From positions 1-64,000 of the forward strand of contig JACTVG010000007.1 of assembly GCA_015660965.1 (NCBI GenBank): a stretch of 64,000 nt of DNA, written 5' to 3'. Source of the stretch: Methanoregulaceae archaeon. Lineage in GTDB: Archaea > Halobacteriota > Methanomicrobia > Methanomicrobiales > Methanospirillaceae. The position numbers and the translations under genes are program-made. The notes below the pieces were generated by a model. It ran no database searches, was not told the DNA's origin, and saw only the letters and a program-made list of their open reading frames with translations. Of the stretch, positions 5,788-59,364 are shown piece by piece; position 1 is the stretch's first letter, and each line of letters opens with the position of its first letter.

Positions 5788-5970
5788 TGCATCAATACAA
5801 ATAATCTTCCATGTTGAATAGCAGAGGGGGGTCTATGCAGCAGGGAAAAACAAAAAACTGTTAAGATTATCCGTATCAGCGAAGATCGTAGAAACTCCGA
5901 CGGTGTTTTATGTTTGTGGTAAAACTCTTTTAAATAAACTAGCCGGTAGTTTATCTCGTCGATTGTTGTC

Positions 5971-5994
5971 TATTCCAGTACTTCCGAAAGTAAA
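5971..5994. repeat. Left copy of a 24-nt direct repeat bracketing the accessory island
   Basis: The sequence begins tattccagtacttccgaaag and runs to 5994. It is identical over 24 nt to 10859-10882. It contains only the right half of the hairpin seen at 10842-10880. It lies in the 246-bp gap between the YkgJ-type gene and the first island gene. Confidence 0.85.
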
Positions 5995-6033
5995 CGTGGG
6001 AAGAATTTACTAATAAGAACAAAACCATCAACC

Positions 6034-6609
6034 GTGCATACGATTAATAATATATCTCTAAGAAAAAAATATCAAAATTTAATGGATGAAATAGAAACTC
6101 TTGATGATTTAATTAAGAAAAAAGACAAATTAATAACAGTTATCGGCGTATTTGGAGCGCTTGCAGCATTTTCAATTGACCTTAATTTTTACCCATTAAC
6201 ATATTCAGCTCTTGCTATCTTTCTCTTGTTAAGTTACGAATTATACCAAAATATTCCTCGTACAGATAAACCGATAGATCTTAATCAAAGAACAATTTTT
6301 TCAACTCTTGAAATATTCCAAATTTTATTTTTTGCATTTGTTACGATTATCTATGGTTATGTAGGGCATTATGCTTTTCAAGTACATCCTGATTTAAAAA
6401 TCTCCTTTATTTTATTCTTTATTGCCGCTCCAATTGCCAATTTGTTATGGATTATTATAACTGACTGGATGAAAAGTCCTGAAATAATTAATTTAAAACA
6501 AAACATACTAAAATTTCGGATTTGGATAATTTCCATGGTGATACTTATACCAATTTTATGGGCAGAAATTTGTTATTTTATAATAAAATTCTTTGAATAT
6601 GTAAAATGA
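6034..6609 (+). CDS. Uncharacterised membrane protein in the accessory island
   Basis: A 191-aa product from GTG at 6034; an ATG at residue 17 (MDEIETLDDL) is an alternative. It has a charged, possibly coiled-coil N-terminus (residues 8-33) and then about five hydrophobic segments, for example LITVIGVFGALAAFSIDL, LTYSALAIFLLLSYELY, ILFFAFVTIIYGYVGHYAF, FILFFIAAPIANLLWIIIT and IISMVILIPILWAEICYFII. The coding sequence is markedly AT-rich compared with core genes nearby, which suggests transfer. No family is recognised. Its position with R-M genes makes a defence role possible but unproven. Confidence 0.55.
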   Translation: MHTINNISLRKKYQNLMDEIETLDDLIKKKDKLITVIGVFGALAAFSIDLNFYPLTYSALAIFLLLSYELYQNIPRTDKPIDLNQRTIFSTLEIFQILFFAFVTIIYGYVGHYAFQVHPDLKISFILFFIAAPIANLLWIIITDWMKSPEIINLKQNILKFRIWIISMVILIPILWAEICYFIIKFFEYVK

Positions 6610-6650
6610 AAAAAAATATATTTTTTATTGGATCACTAGATAATCTTCCA

Positions 6651-7817
6651 TTAAATCAACAATTTTTCCGAGGTAGGGGGCGCCTTTTCTGTTTGGAATA
6701 CTTTGAGTAAAATTATCCCGAACAATTTTGCTGCGATAATTGGTGTCTTTAGATCAATTTGGTCAACTAAGGATAGAATGATATTCACGATTTCCCAGAG
6801 ATTATAGAGACAGACGGAGAACAGGAAATAAAATAACCTGATGATGTAATTCTTTGAAGTGGTTTTCGGCCTGAAATCATTCTTCACTCTGTATGCGGTT
6901 TCAATTCCCCATCTCTTTGAATATAGCTTCGACAGCATCCGAGTATTTGACCGATCAAGATCCATATTCGTCACAAAAGCTCGCTTTTCTTTTTCGATAT
7001 CGAGAACCATAACGAGATTTGTGGTAACAGATTTGGTGCGGCTATTCTGACTCTTGATTGTTATCGGGAGAATTTGGGGTGGGTAGAGGCCGCGTATCTG
7101 TCTGATAGTATTCGGATTCTGGACGGCTGGAATCAGGTACTTCACACCCAGATTATCTAGTGTAGTAAAAACGTCTACTGAATAGAATCCGCGATCAATA
7201 CAGAGAACCCCGATCTCAACCCGCTTTTTCGCGTAATTCACCAAGTCTGCAACAACTTCATGTTTCAGTGTGTCTGCGCTAACTGGAACAGCTCTGATGG
7301 TCAACCTACATTCTTTATCAGTAAGTGTAATCGTTGCAAACCGGTACGCTTTGCTAGTTCCCTTCTGCGGCTTGGTCCCGACAACCATCGGATCGGTCCG
7401 GTCGCCATAGTATAATTCATCCGTGAAATCGATAGCGCAATCCACCGAGCCTTTTAATAAGTCACGGTTCTTTGCCATTGAGATGACTTGATCGGTTATT
7501 CTCTCATATGATTCCAGCAACTCGCTAGTGCTGAACTTTTTAAGATGGTAAAGAAGTGTATCCCCATTGGGGCAACTCTCTTCGGAATAGAAATTCAGAT
7601 TATTTGCGCTGCCCTCAGCACATCCGTTATTAATTCCTGCATAGGTCAGCAGCTTGAAGAAATCGTTATAGGAGTACTTGCAGTTGTGATGGGTTTTTAG
7701 TTTCAGATTGGGTACGATAACTTTCTGAACGAGATCCCAAGTCTTATTGATGAGGCTGCTCCGCTGGAGGTTGGTTTTATTTCGCCTAAGTCCCCCCTTT
7801 GTAACAGCGGATGGCAT
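6651..7817 (-). CDS. ISH3-like DDE transposase
   Basis: A 388-aa protein with a DDE catalytic core: first Asp in VDCAIDFTDELYYGDR followed by the family-like VVGTKPQKGTSKAYRFATITL; second Asp in IGVLCIDRGFYSVDVF; Glu in YSKRWGIETAYRVKNDFR (the YREK-type region of IS4-related elements). The order and wording resemble the ISH3 family common in archaea. The reading frame is intact, so the enzyme may be active. A TATA-like palindrome (tatagtatatactat, 7838-7852) lies just upstream. The DUF2080 gene is transcribed away from it on the other strand. Confidence 0.85.
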   Translation of the reverse strand: MPSAVTKGGLRRNKTNLQRSSLINKTWDLVQKVIVPNLKLKTHHNCKYSYNDFFKLLTYAGINNGCAEGSANNLNFYSEESCPNGDTLLYHLKKFSTSELLESYERITDQVISMAKNRDLLKGSVDCAIDFTDELYYGDRTDPMVVGTKPQKGTSKAYRFATITLTDKECRLTIRAVPVSADTLKHEVVADLVNYAKKRVEIGVLCIDRGFYSVDVFTTLDNLGVKYLIPAVQNPNTIRQIRGLYPPQILPITIKSQNSRTKSVTTNLVMVLDIEKEKRAFVTNMDLDRSNTRMLSKLYSKRWGIETAYRVKNDFRPKTTSKNYIIRLFYFLFSVCLYNLWEIVNIILSLVDQIDLKTPIIAAKLFGIILLKVFQTEKAPPTSEKLLI

Positions 7818-7837
7818 TTTAAGTCACATTAGTGTGG

Positions 7838-7852
7838 TATAGTATATACTAT
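7838..7852 (-). promoter_or_regulatory. Palindromic TATA/operator of the transposase gene
   Basis: tatagtatatactat lies 21-35 nt upstream of the transposase ATG, where a TATA box is expected. It contains the 11-mer agtatatacta (7841-7851), repeated exactly at 7937-7947 in front of the DUF2080 gene. Confidence 0.5.
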
Positions 7853-7936
7853 GTATATACAAGTATTTAATAACTTCTAAAATGTATGGACAAAAACAAT
7901 ACCAAGTATATCCTTTTAAATACATTGAAAATACAA

Positions 7937-7947
7937 AGTATATACTA
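7937..7947 (+). promoter_or_regulatory. Second copy of the 11-nt agtatatacta motif, at the DUF2080 start
   Basis: An exact copy of 7841-7851, ending 3 nt before the ATG at 7950. It could be a repressor site shared by the two divergent genes. Confidence 0.45.
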
Positions 7948-7949
7948 AA

Positions 7950-8114
7950 ATGGAACCTATGGAAGTCTCTACAAAAGCCTACCAGGTGATAGACCGCCCA
8001 GTGAAGGCAATGGGAAATTCTGGCGGAATTTACCTACCGAAAGAATGGATTGGGAAGCAGGTAAAAGTCCTATTAATCGAGCCAATTGAGAAATCCGGGG
8101 ATAATCCGCAGTAG
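7950..8114 (+). CDS. DUF2080 family transposase-associated protein
   Basis: A 54-aa protein, MEPMEVSTKAYQVI to the TAG at 8112-8114. The core DRPVKAMGNSGGIYLPKEW and KQVKVLLIEP matches the DUF2080 family found beside archaeal transposases. The GNSGGIYLPKEW segment looks like an AbrB/SpoVT-type swapped-hairpin DNA-binding fold. A regulator of the neighbouring transposase is the natural inference, supported by the duplicated palindromic motif between the genes. M4 is an alternative start. Confidence 0.8.
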   Translation: MEPMEVSTKAYQVIDRPVKAMGNSGGIYLPKEWIGKQVKVLLIEPIEKSGDNPQ

Positions 8115-8160
8115 GATGATAGGAAAGTTTTTTATTTAGAGGATCTATAAATATCATCAA

Positions 8161-8234
8161 TGCCGGTGTGGGGACTCGAACCCCAGTCATTCGGGTGGTA
8201 GCCCGATTACATTACCTAACTATGCGACGCCGGC
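8161..8234 (-). tRNA. tRNA-like gene with 6-nt anticodon loop (would read Gly, ACC)
   Basis: On the minus strand the 74 nt fold as a cloverleaf: acceptor GCCGGCG/CACCGGC (one C-A mismatch) plus discriminator A; D arm GCAT/ATGT with G18G19-like AGTTAGGTA; T arm TGGGG-TTCGAGT-CCCCA perfect. The anticodon stem TCGGG/CCCGA is perfect but encloses only CTACCA (6 nt), with two unpaired A between D and anticodon stems. Taking the T as U33 gives anticodon ACC. Archaeal glycine tRNAs normally use GCC, UCC or CCC, so this is either a pseudogene or an unusual tRNA. Confidence 0.5.
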
Positions 8235-8247
8235 ATGGTTAATTTGT

Positions 8248-8318
8248 GGGCGTACGACGGGAATCGAACCCGTGTTCCGAGCTTACGAGGGCCAGACCCT
8301 GACCATCAGGCGTACGCC
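8248..8318 (-). tRNA. Degenerate tRNA-like sequence (possible Thr, CGT)
   Basis: On the minus strand, acceptor GGCGTAC/GTACGCC is perfect and a T arm ACGGG-TTCGATT-CCCGT is perfect, but one extra nucleotide separates them. The D arm (CCTG/CAGG) has only a 5-nt loop and lacks the usual features. A loop CTCGTAA would give anticodon CGT, but its stem has a C-C mismatch and two G-T pairs. The internal region is about 4-5 nt shorter than normal. It is probably a decayed or atypical tRNA, 13 nt upstream of the other one on the same strand. Confidence 0.35.
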
Positions 8319-8371
8319 ACATTAATTACTTGCCCATTTGGGGCTCACCCCTTTCCCTTGTAATTTGTTTA

Positions 8372-9145
8372 TTATCCATAGTCGTCTCCTCGTGGCAGTT
8401 TATCTTCTAGGGCGTTTAATAAAAATCTGGCAACCATGATTGAGGACGCATCCTTCACTTCAAATTTTATTCCACCAACATCCAGCGTTATTTTTGTGAA
8501 TGGTGTCCGTCCGACTGAACGCGGACGGCTTTGCGGAGTGCTTACCGTTTGACTTCGGTCATTTGGTATTTTTGATTGGAGAACATTTTTTTCTAGGGAT
8601 TTCTTAATTTTTAGTTTGGATGAAACCTTGAGATTTTTTTGCCTACCTAGGAGTGCAGATCCTCTAGAATATGGGGGTGTTTTAGTTATGCAACTAATAT
8701 CTTCCAAATATGCGTGCCACAAGCGGTCGAGATTTCTTTTTGAAATCGGTTCATTAAGATGGACGATTCTTTCAAACGCTTGTAAGAAAACCTTTCTATC
8801 TGGATTATTTCCAATTGCGTTCAATAACTGGTTCCAAAGAGGAATCGTTCGGATAATTTTTTCAATCGTAGCATTTTTTTCAACCCCTTCTCCATGAATT
8901 GCTGCCTTCCCTATGTCGGTAATTACGTACCCCCAAGTATCCTTTAACAACAAACCAAACTCGACCATGTCTTTTAATTTTTCAGCGGGGCCATTGCTTG
9001 TCGGAGATGCTCCAATCACATCTGTAAATTGCTTACGATCAAACGCCCCAGAATACTTCTTGTCGACGGCGGTCAAATGATCAAGGAGTATACCAAGGCG
9101 TGTGCCAGTAACGGCATACTCTCCATAACCTCTTTCCATTACCAT
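8372..9145 (-). CDS. Uncharacterised protein with winged-helix-like N-terminus
   Basis: A 257-aa soluble protein. Residues about 12-90 look like one or two winged helices (RLGILLDHLTAVDKKYSGAF, FTDVIGASPTSNGPAEKLKDMVEFGLL, WGYVITDIGKAAI), a pattern seen in DUF5343-like archaeal proteins. This is followed by a helical middle, a basic linker (residues about 165-215) and a short C-terminal unit ITLDVGGIKFEVKDASSIMVARFLLNALE. A perfect 14-nt palindrome covers the start codon and a TATA-like tttataa lies about 25 nt upstream, so the mRNA is probably leaderless and the gene may be autoregulated. The function is unknown. Confidence 0.6.
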   Translation of the reverse strand: MVMERGYGEYAVTGTRLGILLDHLTAVDKKYSGAFDRKQFTDVIGASPTSNGPAEKLKDMVEFGLLLKDTWGYVITDIGKAAIHGEGVEKNATIEKIIRTIPLWNQLLNAIGNNPDRKVFLQAFERIVHLNEPISKRNLDRLWHAYLEDISCITKTPPYSRGSALLGRQKNLKVSSKLKIKKSLEKNVLQSKIPNDRSQTVSTPQSRPRSVGRTPFTKITLDVGGIKFEVKDASSIMVARFLLNALEDKLPRGDDYG

Positions 9146-9152
9146 ATGGTAA
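9139..9152. promoter_or_regulatory. Perfect palindrome over the start of the 257-aa gene
   Basis: TTACCATATGGTAA is a perfect 14-nt inverted repeat that contains the ATG (9145-9143) and lies about 20 nt downstream of the minus-strand TATA-like tttttataatcc. That is the position of a repressor operator at the transcription start. Confidence 0.45.
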
Positions 9153-9337
9153 TACGGTTATCATTTGGATTATAAAAAGATTGTTCCGGATTCATTTGGA
9201 TGTGGTATTTGGAACCAAATGAGAGACAACCCCCCAACTTTCAAATTTTTCACAACTCCGACGTTAACTATACCCACCCTCCACACCGTGGAGGATATTT
9301 CAATAAGATTAAATACGATACTGGATAAAATAGCATA

Positions 9338-9880
9338 ATGCCGACGTTGGAAACTCAATCGAGTCATCAATCAAAAGCATCAAAAAGCGGAAGGAAATTC
9401 GAAGATGAAATATACCAACTGCTTATTGACCAAATAACAAATCCAGAAGTATCCATATTGCGACCAAGAACGCATGTTTATAAACCAAATATCAAGAAAT
9501 CGAGGAGAAGATACGCTTGTTTAACGCTTCATACTTCAATTGGTTCAATCATTGGGGATACCGATATCGTTATTTTTAATAAAAAAAAGAAAGAGCCGTT
9601 GGTTATTATAAGCTGTAAAACTTCGTTACATGGACGAATCACAGAATCGTTATATTATGCAAGATTTTATCGTGAAAAATATCCGCAACTGCCCCAGTTC
9701 TTTGTGACAAGCGATAATCATGGAGAGTTTGGATCTGAGGAAAAACCACGCAAATCGAGAGTTTTAGCGACCTATGAGAATATTTTTGTTTATTCATGGA
9801 ATCCAAAAACAATTCTCGGAGGGTGTATCAAATCAAAAGATTCATTTATTGACGATATTAAGCGAGTGATTGACGAATGA
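9338..9880 (+). CDS. Type II restriction endonuclease, PD-(D/E)XK fold (BsaWI-like)
   Basis: A 180-aa protein with a nuclease core: an N-terminal Glu helix (KFEDEIYQLL, residues 20-29), IIGDTDIVIF (D74/D76) and, after 16-18 residues, SCK (residues 92-94) in LVIISCKTSLHGRITESLYYARFY. This is the Asp...Ser-Cys-Lys version of PD-(D/E)XK. The SCKTSL context resembles BsaWI-family enzymes, but the recognition site cannot be read from sequence. It overlaps the methyltransferase by 4 nt (ATGA), so the two are translationally coupled. A TATA-like ttaaata about 25 nt before the ATG suggests a leaderless message. Confidence 0.8.
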   Translation: MPTLETQSSHQSKASKSGRKFEDEIYQLLIDQITNPEVSILRPRTHVYKPNIKKSRRRYACLTLHTSIGSIIGDTDIVIFNKKKKEPLVIISCKTSLHGRITESLYYARFYREKYPQLPQFFVTSDNHGEFGSEEKPRKSRVLATYENIFVYSWNPKTILGGCIKSKDSFIDDIKRVIDE

Positions 9881-10779
9881 AACAGCAATTTTTTAATGAA
9901 GATATCCTTGATGTTCCTATTGAAGATGAGAGCGTTCACCTAATTATTACATCACCTCCTTATAATGTCGGAATCAATTACGATAAACACGAAGATAATA
10001 AGCCATATCAGGAATATTTAAGTTGGCTAACGGAAGTTTTTGTCCATTTGAAGAAAAAACTTGTAAATGGGGGTAGATTATGTATTAATATCGCCCCAAC
10101 AGGAATAAAGAAGTTTACCCCGATTCATCACGATTTAATCACAAATCTTCGTAATGAAGATTATAATTTCGTTGGAGAAATCCTCTGGTATAAACAGAAT
10201 ATGAAATCAAGAACAGCATGGGGATCTTTTCGATCTCCTCGGCGACCTTATGTATTACCCTCTTGGGAATATATCTATGTTTTACAAAAAGGCACATTTC
10301 TTGAGAATGGCGAAAGTAAAAAAGAATTTGTGAAACCAGATATTACGTCTGACGAATTTGTCAGGTTTTCGGATGGCTTTTGGAACATCTCTCCAGAAAC
10401 TGCAAAGAAAGGGCACCCGGTTCCATTCCCAGAACAACTTATCTATCGGTTGATAAAACTTTACTCTTATCCCGGAAACACAGTTCTTGATCCTTTTGGG
10501 GGAAGTGGAACAGTAGCTGCAGTGTGTGCAAAAAACGGGCGTAATTCGGTTTACGTTGATATTTCGCAGAAATATCATGAGATGGCACAAAATAGAGTGG
10601 CCAACTTAAAATCAAAGTGTCCGTATTGTAAAAGTGAGCATTATATTAAAGATGGAAAACGGCGAGATCAAATATCGAAACCATTTGAGGATTACACTGG
10701 ACTACCATGTCCTTTTCTTACTCAGCGGTATCGTTGCAAATCGTGTAAAAAACAATTCACGCATCCGCTTGTCGAATAG
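9877..10779 (+). CDS. DNA methyltransferase of the R-M pair, with C-terminal zinc ribbon
   Basis: A 300-aa amino-methyltransferase of beta-type order: catalytic motif IV TSPPYN (residues 25-30) precedes SAM motif I DPFGGSGT (205-212). TSPPY enzymes modify cytosine-N4 or adenine-N6. It would protect the genome from the endonuclease encoded just upstream, with ATGA overlap. After the methylase core a separate module CPYCKSEHYIKDGKRRDQ...RYRCKSCKKQF (C248-x2-C251 and C287-x2-C290) forms a zinc ribbon of the kind seen at the N-termini of IS1-type transposases. It may help DNA recognition. Both R-M genes are AT-rich relative to core genes. Confidence 0.85.
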   Translation: MKQQFFNEDILDVPIEDESVHLIITSPPYNVGINYDKHEDNKPYQEYLSWLTEVFVHLKKKLVNGGRLCINIAPTGIKKFTPIHHDLITNLRNEDYNFVGEILWYKQNMKSRTAWGSFRSPRRPYVLPSWEYIYVLQKGTFLENGESKKEFVKPDITSDEFVRFSDGFWNISPETAKKGHPVPFPEQLIYRLIKLYSYPGNTVLDPFGGSGTVAAVCAKNGRNSVYVDISQKYHEMAQNRVANLKSKCPYCKSEHYIKDGKRRDQISKPFEDYTGLPCPFLTQRYRCKSCKKQFTHPLVE

Positions 10780-10841
10780 ATTAAAACGGAAAATTATTTT
10801 TTCGGATTATAATACCTCAAATAATTATTACAAAAAGAATC

Positions 10842-10880
10842 TACTTTCGGAACTACTGTATTCCAGTACTTCCGAAAGTA
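10842..10880. repeat. Long imperfect hairpin at the right edge of the island
   Basis: The arms TACTTTCGGAA and TTCCGAAAGTA (11 bp) are followed inward by one C-C mismatch and a 5-bp stem TACTG/CAGTA with loop TATTC. The right arm and loop form most of the 24-nt direct repeat. It lies between the convergent methyltransferase and HTH genes, so it could double as a bidirectional terminator, with a ttttt run on the minus strand beyond it. Confidence 0.8.
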
Positions 10881-10882
10881 AA
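10859..10882. repeat. Right copy of the 24-nt direct repeat
   Basis: Identical to 5971-5994. Here the repeat is the 3' part of the full hairpin; the 5' arm (10842-10852) is absent at the left copy. Confidence 0.85.
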
Positions 10883-10887
10883 ATAAA

Positions 10888-11307
10888 TTATTTATATTGC
10901 ACCCTTTCCCCAATTTGCCGGTTTGAGCAGTTTGAATAAATTTGATTTTTAACCCAACCTGATCCGTTCTTTTGAAAACCGTTTAAATTTAAATATCGGC
11001 AGATTTCCCTATGTGTGAAATTCACATTCTTTGAAATTTTTTGAGGTTGTAAAATTTCAGTAGGATGGGTAAAAATATATTTTTCAATCCGTTCAATTTT
11101 TGAAGGGGATTTTTTTCGTGGAATCGGATTTGCTACGAGTTCACAAAAAAACGGTTTTGGTTGTTCATATCCAAGTATCCATGTTACTTCAAGCAGTGCC
11201 AAAATCGGCACGCCCATTTTTTCTGCAAGAACTCTAAAGTCCACTGTTTTATTGATATGTTCGTTTGCGTATTTCGTTAAACGTTTTTTGAGTGTCACAT
11301 AACGCAT
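10888..11307 (-). CDS. Two-HTH protein, probable DNA-binding regulator
   Basis: A 139-aa protein. The N-terminal half has a helix-turn-helix-like TVDFRVLAEKMGVPILALLEV (about residues 20-40). The C-terminal half has a second one, IFTHPTEILQPQKISKN then FTHREICRYLNLNGFQKNGSGWV, reading like a winged helix. I do not recognise the family. A TATA box about 20-30 nt before the ATG implies a leaderless transcript, and a 24-nt palindrome lies directly upstream of it. The gene ends 6 nt outside the right direct repeat, so whether it belongs to the island is unclear. Confidence 0.6.
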   Translation of the reverse strand: MRYVTLKKRLTKYANEHINKTVDFRVLAEKMGVPILALLEVTWILGYEQPKPFFCELVANPIPRKKSPSKIERIEKYIFTHPTEILQPQKISKNVNFTHREICRYLNLNGFQKNGSGWVKNQIYSNCSNRQIGERVQYK

Positions 11308-11325
11308 GAAATAACTTTTAGCGGA

Positions 11326-11340
11326 TACTATATAAAATGT
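11326..11340 (-). promoter_or_regulatory. TATA box of the two-HTH gene
   Basis: On the minus strand acattttatatagta lies about 20-33 nt before the ATG at 11307, the spacing expected for a leaderless archaeal transcript. Confidence 0.55.
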
Positions 11341-11347
11341 GTGAACT

Positions 11348-11371
11348 TTTTTTCGGCAATTGTCGAAAAAA
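11348..11371. promoter_or_regulatory. 24-nt palindromic operator candidate upstream of the two-HTH gene
   Basis: Half-sites ttttttcggcaa and ttgtcgaaaaaa are inverted around the centre 11359/11360 with a single mismatch pair (G-T). It abuts the TATA region, a usual place for an archaeal regulator to act. Confidence 0.55.
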
Positions 11372-11742
11372 CAAAAACTTATGGGTTCTGGTTCGACTTA
11401 GTGACTTCGTGGCTTTTATCGCAGCACATACAGCGCGCCATTATAGAACCATTTTTTGGATTTTATGAAAATATTGCGCTTGTGGAACCAATCCGGTAAT
11501 TTAATAATCTTTTTATACCCCCCGATTTCCACTGCAGCGCGCCGCAAATATCGCACCAATCTCTTTATAAAGGCTAATATCACGAATGTTAAACCAAGTG
11601 GTTTCGATAGGTAATGGCTCAAGAGACCCGGAGAGGAAATGGTACCGTCTCCTCTCCAAAAACACTATTTAAATCAATTCCATCTTGAATATAATATCGT
11701 GACGGTCGTTTCTTCTGCTAGGGAATCTCTTACACTAGTAGA
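11372..11742. other. Gene-free stretch between the two-HTH gene and a histidine kinase
   Basis: About 370 bp. A 68-codon minus-strand open frame (11416-11622) has no recognisable domain, and its basic, Trp/Lys-rich product looks non-genuine. GCGCGCC occurs twice (about 11438 and 11538) without further structure. A pyrimidine-rich segment (about 11640-11660) precedes the convergent kinase end. I see no RNA gene. Confidence 0.4.
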
Positions 11743-12912
11743 TTAAACCGCATTTCGCATGATCCGGGAATCTTCGGCAGGTACGTTAATCTCAAAACAT
11801 ACACCCTTTCCAGGTTCACCAGTTTCAAATATAGTAATCCCCGTGATGCCGAGAATCTCCCTGCTAAGAAACATCCCAAGGCCAGTATGTTTACCAAATC
11901 CCCTGATAAATATATTGGCTTTATCAACCGTGGGTATTCCAATTCCATCATCAGTATATACAATCGTCACGCCATCTGGTGTTTTATGGTATGAAAATGA
12001 TATCGTGGTGACATGTTCGCCATGACGGATTGAGTTTTCCATGAGGTTGTAAAATACTCTCTCAATAAGCGTATCGGCATAGACTTGAAGACCTTTAATT
12101 TCAATATTAACGGTAATTTCTTTTATCCTAAGTAAATCTACCGCTTTCTGGATTGTTACTGAAACATCTTGCCATTCGGGTGCTCTAACCCCGACATCTT
12201 GATAGAACCGTGTAAACTCTATTTGTCGTTGGATTGCGTCTGTTATCTCGAGCTCTTTCCCGATATAGTCAAAAATGACAGAATTCTTTTCAGCTTTTTC
12301 CTTTGATAAATCCAAAAATGCGAGGAGTACCGTCAGTTTGTTCAAGATGTCATGTCGCGTGACCGATGACAAAATATTAAGTTTTTTGTTTGCCTGTCGA
12401 AGTGCATTTTCTGCCTTCTTACGTTGAGTGACATCATCTTTTAACTTTTCATTGACCTCGGATAACTCGCGGGTACGGTCAGTTACCCGTATCTCCAACG
12501 TATGGGTGAGATCTTCCAGTTTTTCCTGTGCAGTGCGACGCTCTGCAACTTCCAATTGGAGGTTTGCTTGATTGCTCTGTATTTCCCAGAGCAGAACTGA
12601 TACAATTGCAGCGTTTACGATAAAAATGGCTCGATCTAGGAGATCCGTTGTATTAACAATAATTCGGTTAGAAATAATACCGCCAAGCACAATAGCACCA
12701 GAAACGACCCATGTGGTGAAGAACGGAGAATATCGGTATGAGAGCCAAACCGACATGAGGAGCGGCACAAGGTAGAGAATCCAGATAACAAAGCCGAGCG
12801 GGATTAAAACGTCGGCAGCCAAAATCCCAACGACTAAGCAGATCATGGAAAGAAGGATAAGCATATCTTTCTCCTTCACGGTCTTGCCGAAATCCACGAG
12901 TTTCATAGTCAT
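11743..12912 (-). CDS. Membrane sensor histidine kinase
   Basis: The 389-aa protein has about four N-terminal membrane segments (MLILLSMICLVVGILAADVL, FVIWILYLVPLLMSVWLSY, FTTWVVSGAIVLGGIISN, AIFIVNAAIVSVLLWEI) and a coiled coil (about residues 112-178). An H-box follows in SSVTRHDILNKLTVLLAFLDLS, then HATPase_c with N box (FYNLMENSIRHG), G1 (YTDDGIGIP), the F/G region (IFIRGFGKHTGLGMFLSREIL) and GEPGKG. It has no PAS domain, so sensing is likely via the membrane part. No response regulator is adjacent. The catalytic half is closely related to the kinases at 2-490 and 23610-26402. Confidence 0.88.
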   Translation of the reverse strand: MTMKLVDFGKTVKEKDMLILLSMICLVVGILAADVLIPLGFVIWILYLVPLLMSVWLSYRYSPFFTTWVVSGAIVLGGIISNRIIVNTTDLLDRAIFIVNAAIVSVLLWEIQSNQANLQLEVAERRTAQEKLEDLTHTLEIRVTDRTRELSEVNEKLKDDVTQRKKAENALRQANKKLNILSSVTRHDILNKLTVLLAFLDLSKEKAEKNSVIFDYIGKELEITDAIQRQIEFTRFYQDVGVRAPEWQDVSVTIQKAVDLLRIKEITVNIEIKGLQVYADTLIERVFYNLMENSIRHGEHVTTISFSYHKTPDGVTIVYTDDGIGIPTVDKANIFIRGFGKHTGLGMFLSREILGITGITIFETGEPGKGVCFEINVPAEDSRIMRNAV

Positions 12913-13103
12913 TAAAAATTGTGATTAATCATAATATAATACATGATGAAATAAATACGGTAGTCATTTTTGCAGGAAGGTTCTGATTTCCAAGAACTAA
13001 CCTCTACATATGTTCATTTTTGGAATAAAAAGGCATTCAAATCACGATATTTTGAGAAAAGATAGGCTTCATATCGATGAATGGTGAACGGAATGTGAGT
13101 ATT

Positions 13104-13664
13104 ATGGAGAAGAAACGTTTGGGAAGTAATATCTTCATTTACCCAATGCCAGTGACCCTACTGGGGGTAAATATCAAGCAAAAACCAAACTTTATGACTT
13201 TGGGTTGGATATCTCGGGTGAATGCGAGCCCACCCATGGTTGGGTGCGGTGTCGGAAAACACCACTACACGCCACTAGGAATCGCTGAAAATAAAACATT
13301 TAGTGTCAATTTTCCCTCTGCAGAAATGGTTGAGAAAGTGGATTACTGTGGAATTGTATCTGGAAAAAATGTCGATAAGTCAAAGATATTCGATATATTC
13401 TACGGTGAATTGAAAACAGCACCTTTGATCAAGGAATGTCCACTTTCCATTGAATGTCGACTTGTGAATCTTGTCGAAAACCCCACAAATAATTTCTATA
13501 TTGGGGAAATTGTTTCGTCTTATATTGATGAGCAATGTCTCACAGATGGTAAACCGGACATTAAAAAGCTCAATCCGCTTTTGCTCACGATGCCAGATAA
13601 CCGATACTGGACGGTTGGGGAATATGTTGGCGATGCATGGAACATTGGTAAAACCCACAAATAG
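13104..13664 (+). CDS. Flavin reductase-like (FMN-binding split-barrel) protein
   Basis: I take ATG at 13104 (MEKKRLGSNIFIYPMPVTLLGV); an in-frame ATG at 13077 would add nine residues. The 186-aa product has the flavoredoxin/flavin-reductase pattern: PMPVTLLGVNIKQKPNFMTLGWISRVNASPPMVGCGVGKHHYTPLGI, NKTFSVNFPS and a C-terminal GEYVGDAW. It should bind FMN non-covalently and pass electrons to oxygen- or metal-reducing partners. It is followed 11 bp later by the aldo/keto reductase gene, suggesting one redox operon. Confidence 0.8.
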   Translation: MEKKRLGSNIFIYPMPVTLLGVNIKQKPNFMTLGWISRVNASPPMVGCGVGKHHYTPLGIAENKTFSVNFPSAEMVEKVDYCGIVSGKNVDKSKIFDIFYGELKTAPLIKECPLSIECRLVNLVENPTNNFYIGEIVSSYIDEQCLTDGKPDIKKLNPLLLTMPDNRYWTVGEYVGDAWNIGKTHK

Positions 13665-13675
13665 GGTGAGGTGCG

Positions 13676-14785
13676 ATGCTCTATAGGAATGTCCCAAAAA
13701 CTGGCGATAAACTTTCTATTCTCGGTTTTGGGTGTATGCGTCTCCCTACCACAAAGGTGGGGGGTGTCGATGAAGAACGTGCGATACGACAGATCCGTCA
13801 CGCTATCGACAACGGCATCAACTACTTGGATACAGCACCTCTATACCATCTCGGTAAAAGCGAACAAGTTCTTGGGAGGGCTCTAACTGATGGTTACCGA
13901 GAAAAAGTCCGGATCGCGACAAAACTTCCTCCTTGGTCGATCCACAACCGTGTAGATATGGATCGGATTCTGTCTGAACAACTCAGAACCTTGCACACGG
14001 ATCATATCGATTACTATCTGCTCCATAGTCTTTCAAAAGAAAGCTGGGAAAAACTCAAAAATCTCGGAGTACTTGAATTCCTCGATACTGCAAAAAAAGA
14101 TGGTCGAATAAAAAATGCCGGCTTTTCATTTCATGGCAATACTGCAACTTTAAAGGAGATCGTGGATGCTTATGATTGGGAGTTCTGCCAGATTCAATAT
14201 AATTATCTTGATGAACAAAATCAAGCCGGGACTGAGGGGTTGAAGTACGCCGCCGGAAAGCGACTCGCAGTGATAATTATGGAACCCCTTAGGGGTGGCA
14301 ATCTCGCAGGGAAAGTCCCGGAAGAAATACAAAAGATTTGGGATGAGGCACCGGTAAAACGGTCAGCAGCCGAGTGGGGTCTTCGCTGGGTCTGGAACCA
14401 CCCGGAGGCCACAGTAGTTCTTTCCGGTATGAACAACGAAGCTAATATTGATGAGAATTTACGTATCGCTAACTCAGTACTTCCGAATTCTCTATCTCAA
14501 GATGAATTGGAACTCATCAACAAGGTTAGGGATACGTATAAACGATTGATGAAGATTGAATGCACAGGATGCAGCTACTGTATCCCGTGTCCGTCAGGTA
14601 TTGATATTCCCGGTTGCTTTGCTCTATATAACACGTATTATTTATTTCCTCACGATCGGAGTGCGAGATTCCAATATCTCGGACGACATGGTGGAGTTCT
14701 CGCGGGGAAGTCGTACGCAGGATTGTGCAAACAGTGTGGCAAATGCGAAAAATCTGCCCCCAACATTTACCAATCCCTAAACTGA
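13676..14785 (+). CDS. Aldo/keto reductase with C-terminal [4Fe-4S] motifs
   Basis: The 369-aa protein starts MLYRNVPKTGDKLSILGFGC and has the AKR barrel: active-site Asp/Tyr region (GINYLDTAPLYHLGKSEQVLG), Lys strand (VRIATKLPPW), and HTDHIDYYLLHSL with its His. The C-terminus adds ferredoxin-like clusters: CTGCSYCIPCPSGIDIPGC and CKQCGKCEKSAP. This is the Fe-S oxidoreductase subclass common in anaerobes, so electrons may come from a cluster as well as NAD(P)H. The substrate is unknown. It probably forms an operon with the flavin-reductase gene upstream. Confidence 0.88.
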   Translation: MLYRNVPKTGDKLSILGFGCMRLPTTKVGGVDEERAIRQIRHAIDNGINYLDTAPLYHLGKSEQVLGRALTDGYREKVRIATKLPPWSIHNRVDMDRILSEQLRTLHTDHIDYYLLHSLSKESWEKLKNLGVLEFLDTAKKDGRIKNAGFSFHGNTATLKEIVDAYDWEFCQIQYNYLDEQNQAGTEGLKYAAGKRLAVIIMEPLRGGNLAGKVPEEIQKIWDEAPVKRSAAEWGLRWVWNHPEATVVLSGMNNEANIDENLRIANSVLPNSLSQDELELINKVRDTYKRLMKIECTGCSYCIPCPSGIDIPGCFALYNTYYLFPHDRSARFQYLGRHGGVLAGKSYAGLCKQCGKCEKSAPNIYQSLN

Positions 14786-15041
14786 TGAAAGAGGTATCAA
14801 AGACAATGGAGGGGAGGGGTATGGGTATGAAAGTTCAGGTAGTGAAAGGGACAATTTGGTGTATGGTTCAAGTGGGACGTATCAAAAGGAAATTTTCGAG
14901 AAAAAAATAATTAAAAAATGGATGGGATCGGAATAATCTTGGAACATGGCAAACAGGATATTTAATTTCATTACCCGAATGCAATAAAAGAAATAGGAGA
15001 AAGGAACTAATACCAATTTTGTCAAGTCAAGGAGGATAAGT

Positions 15042-15659
15042 ATGGAACCGACCAAGCTATATGCTTTACCAAAACTTCCGTACGAATATAAGGCCCTAGC
15101 GCCGTATATTTCGGAAGCGCAACTGACCCTGCACCACCAAAAGCACCACCAGGCATATGTCACTGGTGCGAACGCGATTCTCGAAAAACTCGACAAAGCA
15201 CGTAAGGAAAATTCGGATCTCGACATTAAAGCCACATTGAAAGAACTCTCATTTCATATCGGTGGATATAAGCTCCACAACATGTTTTGGGAGAACCTCG
15301 CACCCGCAGGGAAAGGTGGCGGAGTACCCAAAGGTGAGCTGGCAAAGGAAATTGATGCTGAATTCGGCAAATTCGACCGGTTCAAAAAGGAGTTCACTCT
15401 GGCTGCAACCAGTGTTGAAGGTTCTGGATGGGCGGCATTGACTTATTGTACGAAAACAGAGCGACCAATTATAATGCAGGTTGAGAAGCACAATGCAAAC
15501 ATTTACCCTGGATTTAGCATTCTTATGGTTTTAGATGTCTGGGAGCATGCGTATTATCTTGATTACAAGAACGACCGGGCAAAATTCGTTGAGGCTTTCT
15601 GGAACATTGTGAATTGGGATGAGGTGAACAAACGACTTGTAATGTTATTGAAAAAATAA
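15042..15659 (+). CDS. Superoxide dismutase, Fe/Mn type
   Basis: The 205-aa enzyme converts superoxide to H2O2 and O2. The four metal ligands are visible: H31 in [12 protein letters not shown]79 in [11 protein letters not shown], and D165 and H169 in [21 protein letters not shown] is the usual second-shell region. AAGGAGG about 6 nt before the ATG is one of the best SDs in the window, consistent with high expression. It follows two redox genes, making this a small oxidative-stress neighbourhood. Iron is the likelier metal in methanogens, but sequence does not prove it. Confidence 0.95.
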
Positions 15660-23609: not shown

Positions 23610-26402
23610 ATGATCTCGGTCCTCTATGTTGACGATGAAGAGGCTTTCCTTGAATTATGTAAGCAATTTCTTGAAAAATCGGGCGACCTAAATGTCGAAA
23701 TAAGCACCTCTGCCAAGAGCGCACTTGATCTGATTACTTCGAAAAGATTTGATGCAATTATATCTGACTATCAAATGCCGGAGATGGATGGAATTGAGCT
23801 TTTAAAGGAGGTCAGATCGCGATATTCCGACTTACCGTTTATTCTTTTCACTGGGAAAGGTAGAGAAGAAGTGGTTATTGATGCGATAAATAATGGTGCG
23901 GACTTCTATTTACAGAAAGGTGGCGACTCGAAATCTCAATTTGTTGAGCTGGAACATAAGGTAATTCAAGCGATCCGTAGGCGACGGGCAGAGAGACTAT
24001 TAAAAGATAGCCAGGGTGCTCTTGCAGAATCGAAGCAAATTTTACAATCGGTTCTTGATACTATTCCCGTTCGGGTATTTTGGAAGGATTTGAATTTAAA
24101 TTATTTAGGATGTAACCGCCAATTCGCTCATGATTCTGGTTTTGTATTCCCCGACGATTTAATAGGAAAATCTGACTATGAGATGGGATGGAGAGATCTA
24201 GCAGAACTATATCGAGCTGATGATCGTGCGGTGATTACAAGCGGCACTCCAAAGCTCAATTACGAAGAACCTCTGACAACGCCTGATGGTAACAGGAAAA
24301 TCTGGGTGCGAACAAGTAAGATGCCTCTAAAAGACGCAAATGGAAATATCCAGGGGGTTTTGGGAACCTATGAAGATATTACAGATTGGAAAGAAGCACG
24401 GGAAAAGATCGATACTCTTGCCCAGTTCCCAGAACAAAACCCGAATCCTATTTTGAGGATTGATGCAGAGGGTATTTTATGCTACAAAAATCCTGCATCA
24501 AATCACTTGCTTAATCACTTAGCATTGGAGGAGGGCAAATCTGTTCCCTTAGAATGGCATCAGCGAGTTAATGATGTGCTTAATACGGGGAAAGTCGGAT
24601 CATACGAGCAAAAGATCGATGGACAGACCTACTCTATCACCCTTGCGCCATTTGCTGATCACAAATTCGTGAATTTTTACTTTGTGGACATAACGCAACG
24701 ATTGCAAGTCGAGCAAGAAAACCTAAAAAAGAGCGAGGAGCTCCGTGCAGCTTATGAGCAACTCAAATCCACGAATGCCATTTTACAGGACAACTTCCGA
24801 ATGGCCATTGAAGCGAGAAGGGCAGAAGAAATTAAAAAGGATCAGGCTGAGCGGTCTATAGAGTATCAGAAGGCTTTAGTGAACCTTGCTATCAGTGATG
24901 CCCCTAAATTACGAGATGCAATAAACAATATAACTGAAACGGGCTCGACTGTTCTTAAAGTTGAACAAGCAAGTATCTGGTTTTTCTCACCTGATGGGCA
25001 GTCTCTTGAATGCAAAGACCTGTATATAAATAACCAGCGCATCCATAAATCAGAGCAGACTATTTTCAGTCAAGATTATCCACAATATTTTGCCGCATTA
25101 CATGCCAACCGTACAATTGTTGCAGATGATGCACGGACAAATGAAAATACACGTGAATTTACAACCAATTATTTCGAACCATTGGGTATAACTTCAATGC
25201 TTGATGTACCAATCAGATCAGGCCGACACGTTGTCGGCGTTCTTTGCTTTGAGCATATTGGCTTTCCCCGCATTTGGGAAGTTGAAGAGCAGGATTTTGC
25301 GGCATCGCTTGCTGACTTTACCGTAATTATACTTGAAAAAGCACGCCGACGTCTTGCAGAGAAAGATTTACAGAAAAGCAGGGACAGGTCACGAATTACT
25401 CAGTTTGCTGTTGATCATGCAGCGGAGGGGATTATTTGGATTGATTCGGATGGAAAGATGGTGTATTCCAATACCACTTTCTCTACTATGCTTGGTTATA
25501 CAAGCGATGAACTGTTTGAGATGACTATTTTTGCTATTGACCCCTCGATGACAAAAGAGAAATGGAATTTAGAGTTTGCTCAAAAGAAAGCGGTTGGTTC
25601 CTTAACTATTGAAACGAATTATACGAAAAGAGGGGGAGAACACTTCCCGGTTGAGGTCACAAGCGATTATTTTGAGTATGGGGGGACAGGCTATATCTGT
25701 TCATTTGCCCGAGATATCAGCGAACGAAAGCGAGCCGAAAAGGCCCTCCGCCTTGCAAACGAGAAATTGAACCTTCTGTCGAGTGTTACGCGTCATGATA
25801 TCCTAAATAAATTGACAATTGTGCTCGGTTATCTCGGACTTTCGAAAATAACACATGACAGGGATAAATTAGAGGACTTCATTAAAAAGATCGATGAAAC
25901 TATTCAGGTTATTGAGGGCCAGATCCAGTTCACTCGAGACTATCAAGATATGGGGGTAAAGGCACCTGAATGGCAGGATGCTAAATCAGTATTTATCAAA
26001 GCAATTTCCCAGCTCGATCTAGATACAGTCCATATTCAGAATGATCTTTTAGGTCTAAGTGTCTTTGCCGATCCTCTGTTGGAGCGTGTGATATACAACA
26101 TTGTTGATAATGCATTACGATATGGGGAAAGAGTAACTACCATTCGAACTCGTTACATTAAAAATGATGATGAACTTGTTTGGATTATCGAAGACGATGG
26201 TGTTGGGATCCCTGCAAAGAACAAGAGCCTGATTTTTAACAAGGGATTCGGTAAACATACAGGATTTGGACTATTCCTCGCTCGAGAAATTCTATCAATA
26301 ACAGGAATAAGTATCATGGAAACTGGGTTCCCTGGTAATGGAGCACGGTTTGAGATCCATGTGCCCGTTGGTGAATATCGTATCACTGAAAAATCTGTAT
26401 GA
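23610..26402 (+). CDS. Receiver-PAS-GAF-PAS histidine kinase
   Basis: Start at ATG 23610 (MISVLYVDDEEAF); an ATG seven codons upstream is less likely. The 930-aa soluble protein has an N-terminal receiver domain (phospho-Asp in AIISDYQMPEMDG, Lys in LQKGGD), a PAS domain (TIPVRVFWKDLNLNYLGCNRQF), a second PAS-like unit (NPNPILRIDAEGILCY), a coiled coil, a GAF domain (about 430-585, FSPDGQSLECKDLY), a third PAS domain (GIIWIDSDGKMVYSNTTFS), an H-box RHDILNKLTIVLGYL and HATPase_c ending in GFPGNGARFEI. It is probably a hub accepting phosphate from, and passing it to, other proteins. The input is unknown; no TM segments. Confidence 0.92.
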   Translation: MISVLYVDDEEAFLELCKQFLEKSGDLNVEISTSAKSALDLITSKRFDAIISDYQMPEMDGIELLKEVRSRYSDLPFILFTGKGREEVVIDAINNGADFYLQKGGDSKSQFVELEHKVIQAIRRRRAERLLKDSQGALAESKQILQSVLDTIPVRVFWKDLNLNYLGCNRQFAHDSGFVFPDDLIGKSDYEMGWRDLAELYRADDRAVITSGTPKLNYEEPLTTPDGNRKIWVRTSKMPLKDANGNIQGVLGTYEDITDWKEAREKIDTLAQFPEQNPNPILRIDAEGILCYKNPASNHLLNHLALEEGKSVPLEWHQRVNDVLNTGKVGSYEQKIDGQTYSITLAPFADHKFVNFYFVDITQRLQVEQENLKKSEELRAAYEQLKSTNAILQDNFRMAIEARRAEEIKKDQAERSIEYQKALVNLAISDAPKLRDAINNITETGSTVLKVEQASIWFFSPDGQSLECKDLYINNQRIHKSEQTIFSQDYPQYFAALHANRTIVADDARTNENTREFTTNYFEPLGITSMLDVPIRSGRHVVGVLCFEHIGFPRIWEVEEQDFAASLADFTVIILEKARRRLAEKDLQKSRDRSRITQFAVDHAAEGIIWIDSDGKMVYSNTTFSTMLGYTSDELFEMTIFAIDPSMTKEKWNLEFAQKKAVGSLTIETNYTKRGGEHFPVEVTSDYFEYGGTGYICSFARDISERKRAEKALRLANEKLNLLSSVTRHDILNKLTIVLGYLGLSKITHDRDKLEDFIKKIDETIQVIEGQIQFTRDYQDMGVKAPEWQDAKSVFIKAISQLDLDTVHIQNDLLGLSVFADPLLERVIYNIVDNALRYGERVTTIRTRYIKNDDELVWIIEDDGVGIPAKNKSLIFNKGFGKHTGFGLFLAREILSITGISIMETGFPGNGARFEIHVPVGEYRITEKSV

Positions 26403-58221: not shown

Positions 58222-59364
58222 ATGATGAAGTGGATCAGTAGAGTCCTGTTATTAAGTTTTATAATTATCTGTTGTGTTCCATTCGTTTCTGCTTATGCTG
58301 TATCAAATATGAACATTAACCCATCAGGTAGTCTTACACCTGGTCAGAGAGTATCAATATCTTTTGGTCTTGATTTTCCTATTGTCAATGGATACACGTT
58401 TCCAGGTGACGATACTTTAGATATGTACACTGACCTTACAGATGCAAAATGGTCTGTGGTTAAAGTTGAAACATATTCAGGGGTGGCTCCCATTGAATCA
58501 TCGTTAGGAAATGCTGGTGGGCCACGTGATCAAGTAAGTGGTTGGATATTAAGTTATAAAGACCGACAACTTAGTTTACGCGTTAATCTCGATGGCGTAG
58601 CACCTGCTGTTGATCAGACTCAAAATAAAACACTGATAAAGATAAATGAACTTGACTCTTATGGTAACCCACTTTCGACATCCGGTAACGTATGGACCGC
58701 ATTAATTGTAAATGTAGCCGATATTAATACTGCTATATCTACTAGCGACTCTAATTTAGCTGTTTTTCGAACACATATTGACGAAAAAGCTGCAATGGAG
58801 GCCGATACTTCAGCTGCCGAGGGAAAGTATAGTGATGCAAAAGCAGCAATTGACAACGCAAGATCTCAACCCTCAACGCAATATGCTGCAGCTTTGTCAA
58901 GTCTTACAAACGCCCAAAATCTCATTACTGACGGAGAAACGTTATTAGATAAGGCATGGGCGGAAAAAGCTGTTGCTGATGCGCAAATCCCAATTAATAA
59001 TGTTGATCAAGTCATTAACTTTATTAAACCAAATTTAAGTAGCAGTGATGCTAGGTTAGCTCCAATTATCTCAGAAAGAGAAGTTGCGGCCGGATATATC
59101 TCCGATGCTAACGATGCTATCTTTTCCGGAACCTATGATCACGCTCGAGATAAGGCCCAGCAAGCCTTTGATAAAGGAAATCAATCATACACTGAAGCGC
59201 TTGCATTAAAGAGCCAAATTACTGGAGGGTTTAATCCCTTGGGAGCAATCGGGAAGTTGTTTGGTTCAGGGACGCTTATTATAGTCGGCGTTGTTGCAGT
59301 TGTATTGATTGTCGTCGGTATCATTATTTATCGCAAGCGTACTCAATGGGATGAGTTAGGTTAA
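58222..59364 (+). CDS. Secreted, membrane-anchored coiled-coil protein coupled to the CetZ-like gene
   Basis: ATG at 58222 or 58225 follows GTGAGG; an upstream GTG (58213) overlaps the CetZ stop. The about 380-aa protein has a signal peptide (MKWISRVLLLSFIIICCVPFVSAYA), an external beta-rich domain (about 30-180), a helical coiled-coil stretch (SAAEGKYSDAKAAIDNARSQ, YAAALSSLTNAQNLI, about 195-330) and one C-terminal TM with basic cytoplasmic end (LIIVGVVAVVLIVVGIIIYRKR). No family recognised. Coupling to a tubulin homologue suggests a surface partner. Confidence 0.75.
   Translation: MMKWISRVLLLSFIIICCVPFVSAYAVSNMNINPSGSLTPGQRVSISFGLDFPIVNGYTFPGDDTLDMYTDLTDAKWSVVKVETYSGVAPIESSLGNAGGPRDQVSGWILSYKDRQLSLRVNLDGVAPAVDQTQNKTLIKINELDSYGNPLSTSGNVWTALIVNVADINTAISTSDSNLAVFRTHIDEKAAMEADTSAAEGKYSDAKAAIDNARSQPSTQYAAALSSLTNAQNLITDGETLLDKAWAEKAVADAQIPINNVDQVINFIKPNLSSSDARLAPIISEREVAAGYISDANDAIFSGTYDHARDKAQQAFDKGNQSYTEALALKSQITGGFNPLGAIGKLFGSGTLIIVGVVAVVLIVVGIIIYRKRTQWDELG

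Follow-up and report, generated by a model that had tools for sequence, protein, structure and literature searches.

A very probable ISH3-type transposon carrying a BsaWI-like restriction-modification system in a Methanoregulaceae archaeon, and its stacked relatives

The first 64,000 nucleotides (nt) of contig JACTVG010000007.1 from a Methanoregulaceae archaeon (assembly GCA_015660965.1), hereafter the window, contain a 4883-bp element (positions 5976-10858) that is very probably a passenger-carrying transposon with a DDE transposase, belonging to a divergent branch of the ISH3 family, rather than an island bounded by attachment (att) sites. A first-pass annotation had noticed an identical 24-nt sequence on both sides of this segment. 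The repeat does bound a mobile unit with an ISH3-like transposase and a BsaWI-like restriction-modification (R-M) system, as that annotation held; its proposals that the whole 24-mer was a target duplication or att site, and that a recombinase acted in trans, did not survive, as only 5 bp are duplicated target, the remainder is a terminal inverted repeat and a transposase lies inside the element.

The 24-mer TATTCCAGTACTTCCGAAAGTAAA is present identically at 5971-5994 and 10859-10882 on the same strand, and a chance origin is negligible, as had been claimed: by our own arithmetic (about n^2/2/4^24) an exact pair in 64 kb has an expectation of the order of 1e-5, and the longest repeat in 30 shuffles averaged about 16 nt (single odd maximum, 22). 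Its first 5 bp (TATTC) are a target duplication, the next 17 bp (CAGTASTTCCGAAAGTA) a terminal inverted repeat and the last 2 simply further matching bases. An inverted copy of the motif stands immediately to the left of the right 24-mer and is the true right end of the element, whereas the left 24-mer has no such partner. Together they form a 39-nt hairpin at 10842-10880 (TACTTTCGGAACTACTG-TATTC-CAGTACTTCCGAAAGTA; fold z-score -6) of which the right 24-mer is one half. The two inverted ends are identical at 16 of 17 positions, TATTC lies exactly outside each of them, and the second copy of the 24-mer takes in the left end of a decayed element that directly adjoins this one. The features that define the element and its insertion site are the following:

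5934-5954, no strand assigned: palindrome ATAAACTAGCCGGTAGTTTAT, proposed to act as the target signal; it lies 16 nt beyond the left target duplication.
5971-5975, plus strand: left target site duplication TATTC, identical to 10859-10863.
5976-5992, plus strand: left terminal inverted repeat CAGTACTTCCGAAAGTA, the consensus of 39 ends from Methanoregulaceae and Thermoplasmatota.
6651-7817, minus strand: uninterrupted ISH3-like DDE transposase of 388 amino acids (PF01609, 1.6e-12).
10842-10858, minus strand: right terminal inverted repeat, CAGTAGTTCCGAAAGTA on that strand, 16/17 against the left end.
10859-10863, plus strand: right target site duplication TATTC, doubling as the outer duplication of the neighbour.
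10864-10880, plus strand: left end of the decayed neighbour, which makes the second 24-mer copy; its partner end was not found in the window.

The hallmarks of ISH3 elements are ends beginning with CRGT, a target duplication of 4-5 bp and a Y-(2)-R-(3)-E-(3)-R motif in the transposase (PMC2266710). The window transposase carries this motif (YSKRWGIETAYR at residue 299) and conserved D, D and E residues; 37 of the 39 ends start with CAGT, and the duplications are TATTC in the window and GACAA, CCTCT and AGCCA in related elements. ISH3 is the best NCBIfam model for the transposase (168 bits, 1.9e-49; next best, 38 bits) and, as the score falls below the equivalog cut-off of 225 bits, the protein is best regarded, from its sequence, as a divergent member of the ISH3 clade. 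The element is called a variant because its length departs from the 1225-1500 bp of classical members, a typical and not a defining size. Nowhere in the window is the transposase enclosed by a closer pair of ends, which places the passenger genes within the element.

Related ends occur well beyond this locus, in Methanoregulaceae as well as in Thermoplasmatota. The 17-mer core is found in 17 of 108 genomes of the family, against 2 genomes for a reversed control pattern (one mismatch allowed). The annotation had asked for the repeat to be sought elsewhere, and had considered that it might be a common dispersed element unrelated to the island: motif copies do lie on another contig of the same genome and are scattered through the family, but as the end of this transposon family, and neither the exact 24-mer nor a 22-mer has a match in public genome and viral collections. 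When a free loop of 3-9 nt was allowed, the hairpin was recovered in a deposited Methanoregula contig (L061) and five Thermoplasmatota genomes, and in every case its loop measured exactly 5 nt. At locus L059 two hairpins 1.4 kb apart both have the loop AGCCA and so look like a pair of inverted ends flanked by a duplicated 5-bp target. Hairpin-pattern matches in bacteria and viruses (L062, L064-L068, L071) do not extend to the remainder of the end consensus and were dismissed as chance or terminators; motif matches within coding regions (L029-L031) are chance codon matches.

Pairing of ends that have identical outer 5-mers yields four complete elements, the one in the window and three others of 8.5, 7.8 and 1.4 kb, all with exact 5-bp duplications:

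Window, 5976-10858: duplication TATTC.
L115, 3801-12335: duplication GACAA, ends 24/25 identical.
L126, 7637-15402: duplication CCTCT.
L124, 6599-7972: duplication AGCCA.

Between loci the ends are constant and the outer 5-mers variable. Relatives of the transposase are found close to such ends in L053/L115 (two), L055, L056, L060/L126, L063/L127, L161 and L162; those of full length are 34-53% identical and the others are fragments. A search for relatives in phages returned none. The ends in L161 and L162 read CAGTAGATCCGAAAGT; in L161 they lie at 8046 and 12070, and since the bases outside them are CAATT and ACAAT, the duplication there is either 4 bp (CAAT) or drifted.

Two further observations concern these ends. 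In the window's genome (L013:9550-10214; G000 C105:47549-48213) two left ends of the same orientation lie 648 bp apart with a DUF1673-like membrane protein gene between them; no right end was found at this locus, and the pair is probably a remnant. In Thermoplasmatota the gene of a helix-turn-helix (HTH)-type protein with no assigned family, which may be a DNA-binding accessory encoded by the elements, repeatedly ends within the terminal repeat, in differing reading frames:

L059, 5920-6594: HTH-type gene ending in the terminal repeat.
L069, 1930-2742: the same.
L126, 7636-8304: the same.
L118, 9536-10204: the same.

Three explanations that do without such a transposon have to be weighed. The 24-mer could be the core of an attachment site at which a tyrosine or serine recombinase supplied in trans moves the island, in agreement with the exactness of the direct repeat and the presence of four tyrosine recombinases elsewhere in the genome. 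This is highly improbable: a 5-mer differs at each locus while the remainder is constant and inverted, like the ends of a transposon, only the right copy is paired with an inverted partner, no integrase lies inside, and an internal transposase together with four end pairs bearing exact 5-bp duplications contradicts it. Least credible of all is a set of integron-like cassettes with folded recombination sites. A hairpin on one side, a half site on the other, varied cargo and arrays recall such cassettes, but neither an integron integrase (IntI) nor attI or attC is present in the window, the two arms of each hairpin are transposon ends, and complete elements have inverted ends with 5-bp duplications, so that only the array behaviour is similar. 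Repetitive extragenic palindromic (REP) or IS200/605 hairpins and a terminator between convergent genes were, like att sites and integron cassettes, set aside in view of the inverted end pairs with 5-bp duplications.

The remaining alternative is a short ISH3 insertion sequence (IS), a mere bystander inside an unrelated R-M island whose 24-mer stems from something else. Classical members measure 1.2-1.5 kb (PMC2266710) and the low GC content (0.379, against 0.422 for the window) is island-like. It is nonetheless very unlikely, as no inverted repeats belonging to the gene itself are present within the island, the transposase recurs in multi-gene units with the same type of ends in L115, L126, L056 and L161 (the first two complete, with exact duplications), and no short copy with different ends was seen in relatives.

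Under the transposon reading, the transposase presumably recognises and acts on the 17-bp inverted ends, and a 5-bp staggered cut at insertion would leave TATTC on both sides. An older member of the family, with TATTC already outside its end, would have been present, and the window element would have landed directly next to that end, which would place the duplication plus an end at two positions and so produce both the apparent direct repeat and the hairpin. The elements seem to be guided to a 5-bp spot lying about 16 nt away from a palindrome, and its repeated use would stack them.

Stacking is seen in eight junctions of the form end-5 nt-end in seven genomes (window, L115, L124 twice, L126, L127, L128 and L129), with a spacing of exactly 5 nt in all eight although 3-9 nt were allowed. 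The 5-mer recurs in 4/4 comparable arrays (TATTC in the window, AGCCA in L124, CCTCT in L126 and GACAA in L115, where one copy is AACAA, 4/5). A palindrome of the type ATAAACY-N7-RGTTTAT stands 15-19 nt outside the duplication in five independent insertions, at 16 nt in the window, 15 in L051, 19 in L049/L050 (one orthologous event), 16 in L115 and 18 in L162; degenerate versions occur at 17 nt in L055 and L161, and Thermoplasmatota have at most weak analogues (L123, 19 nt). Since the palindrome is otherwise rare (0-3 places per genome in eight genomes searched), five occurrences within 20 nt of insertions are not ascribed to chance. Of the neighbouring elements in the window, and likewise in L115, the one nearer the palindrome is better preserved and the decayed one lies beyond it, which would follow if newcomers enter the same 5-bp spot near the palindrome; the palindrome would then direct insertion and the proximal copy would be the newest.

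The same transposon could instead stack through a preference for resident ends, or through end-joined intermediates as in IS30, with no targeting by the palindrome. The eight junctions speak for this, IS30 has such a dual target preference (PMC9333248), and the position of the preserved element could be compared in two cases only. The fixed distance of the palindrome in five insertions and its position next to the better preserved element speak against this possibility, which is less likely than not but still substantial. Palindrome targeting forms part of a wider picture to which we give a little under an even chance: an ISH3-type archaeal family that finds an operator-like palindrome, inserts 15-19 nt away and re-uses the 5-bp spot, so that a DDE transposase assembles units with varied, often defence-related cargo into arrays like those of integrons, the family being shared by methanogens and Thermoplasmatota.

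Several points weigh against these interpretations. The window element is 3-4 times as long as classical ISH3 elements; it is known from a single copy, hence gives no direct sign of movement; and the source material consists of metagenome assemblies. No right end matching the decayed neighbour was found in the window. No empty site was recovered, the flanking gene order being lost in congeners. The palindrome is absent from half of the ends compared, most of them with one readable flank only, and it is missing on the sole readable flank of L056, L116, L117, L013 and L054.

In the window element the predicted cargo combines a BsaWI-like R-M system with a membrane protein and with a putative regulator. 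A tRNA-like pair accompanies them, as does a small transposon-associated protein encoded beside the transposase; all but the last had been listed in the annotation:

6034-6609, plus strand: membrane protein of 191 amino acids, without a Pfam family.
7950-8114, plus strand: DUF2080 'putative transposon-encoded protein' of 54 amino acids (PF09853, 1.9e-8).
8160-8235, minus strand: degenerate tRNA with a 6-nt anticodon loop and an acceptor mismatch.
8247-8316, minus strand: second, poorer tRNA-like sequence with a good T arm (T-arm match) and acceptor stem, the rest poor; relaxed threshold only.
8372-9145, minus strand: protein of 257 amino acids, possibly with an N-terminal winged helix-turn-helix (by eye); no family in Pfam, PADLOC or NCBIfam.
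9338-9880, plus strand: BsaWI-type restriction endonuclease of 180 amino acids (PF18643 RE_BsaWI, 4.6e-12).
9877-10779, plus strand: N6/N4 DNA methyltransferase of 300 amino acids with a Cys-rich C-terminal extension (PF01555, 4.4e-42; PADLOC type II MTase).

The PF18643 nuclease and its partner methyltransferase are presumably active as a pair; sequence searches found neither a solved relative of the nuclease nor relatives in plasmids. BsaWI-type systems have WCCGGW as their recognition sequence. No tRNA genes were called in other loci of the family, and the tRNA-like pair is therefore not a family trait. Elsewhere in the window, three paralogous histidine-kinase-like regions (2-475, 11746-12912 and 25713-26399) are about 52% mutually identical.

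Across the family, defence-type cargo is frequent, not universal; where one end only is known, the assignment is likely. The L115 element holds an unknown protein with a PIN protein (a toxin-antitoxin (TA)-like pair), a radical SAM protein, TcmP in two frames, an Mrr-like protein and an N6/N4 methyltransferase in two open reading frames. L055 (left end only) has a HEPN protein and a type IIG restriction-methylation enzyme; L056 and the TcmP-bearing units of L126 and L127 (right ends only) have TcmP with a radical-SAM-like gene. The complete L126 element (7637-15402) carries a dCTP deaminase-like protein and a secreted beta-propeller protein, and L124 a serine hydrolase without a transposase, resembling a mobile insertion cassette. 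A hairpin at 59278 (G001 C114) was at one point taken to close a cassette around the TA-like pair, which the full contig places in the 8.5-kb element to its right.

Other features of the cargo deserve mention. TcmP (three-Cys-motif partner) and the radical-SAM-like gene, a candidate defence pair, recur in L056, L115, L126 and L127, in methanogens and Thermoplasmatota. One reading frame of the split methyltransferase (L115:9740-12097, minus strand) weakly matches the PI-PfuI endonuclease subdomain (PF09062) and may hold an intein or its remnant. A degraded family element at L115:1449-3795 (G001 C114:56948-59294; flanks AACAA/GACAA) surrounds a complete ilvC (ketol-acid reductoisomerase) and a transposase fragment, and this core biosynthetic gene is possibly transposon cargo.

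An ISH3-type element with R-M, TA-like and radical-SAM/TcmP genes in distant archaeal lineages offers a concrete means for archaeal defence genes to spread and to gather in clusters, and with the palindrome rule insertion sites can be predicted beforehand. As of 2008, IS231 alone was known to have passenger genes within this part of IS diversity (PMC2266710), and a 2019 paper stated that no composite DNA transposon with such genes had been detected in archaea (PMC6563490). Neither paper reports passenger-bearing ISH3 elements or similar archaeal passenger transposons, which, for a search of open-access literature only, is weak evidence of novelty; what would be new is a passenger-carrying, apparently target-selective and tandem-stacking ISH3 variant.

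Among known systems, ISH3 elements share with the window element the transposase clade, the Y-(2)-R-(3)-E-(3)-R motif, CRGT ends, 4-5 bp duplications and archaeal hosts (PMC2266710); they measure 1.2-1.5 kb, against 4.9 kb here (1.4-8.5 kb in relatives) with passenger genes, palindrome-linked insertion, stacking and a transposase under the strict NCBI cut-off. IS231-type elements and mobile insertion cassettes likewise place IS ends around passenger genes, some units lacking a transposase as L124 does (PMC2266710), but IS231 belongs to the IS4 family of Bacillus with duplications of 10-12 bp, unlike the 5 bp of these archaeal ISH3-type elements. IS30 also uses near-palindromic targets and forms end-to-end junctions by inserting next to inverted repeats of its own (PMC9333248); it has an unrelated bacterial transposase and no passenger genes. 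Casposons are archaeal transposons with inverted ends, target re-use and stacking with shared target duplications (PMC6563490); they differ in using a Cas1 integrase, polymerase genes and gene-end targets, with no DDE transposase, and no Cas1-type integrase is encoded within 5976-10858. The R-M cargo, as predicted from its sequence, resembles BsaWI-type systems in the PF18643 nuclease domain family and the adjoining N6/N4 methyltransferase.

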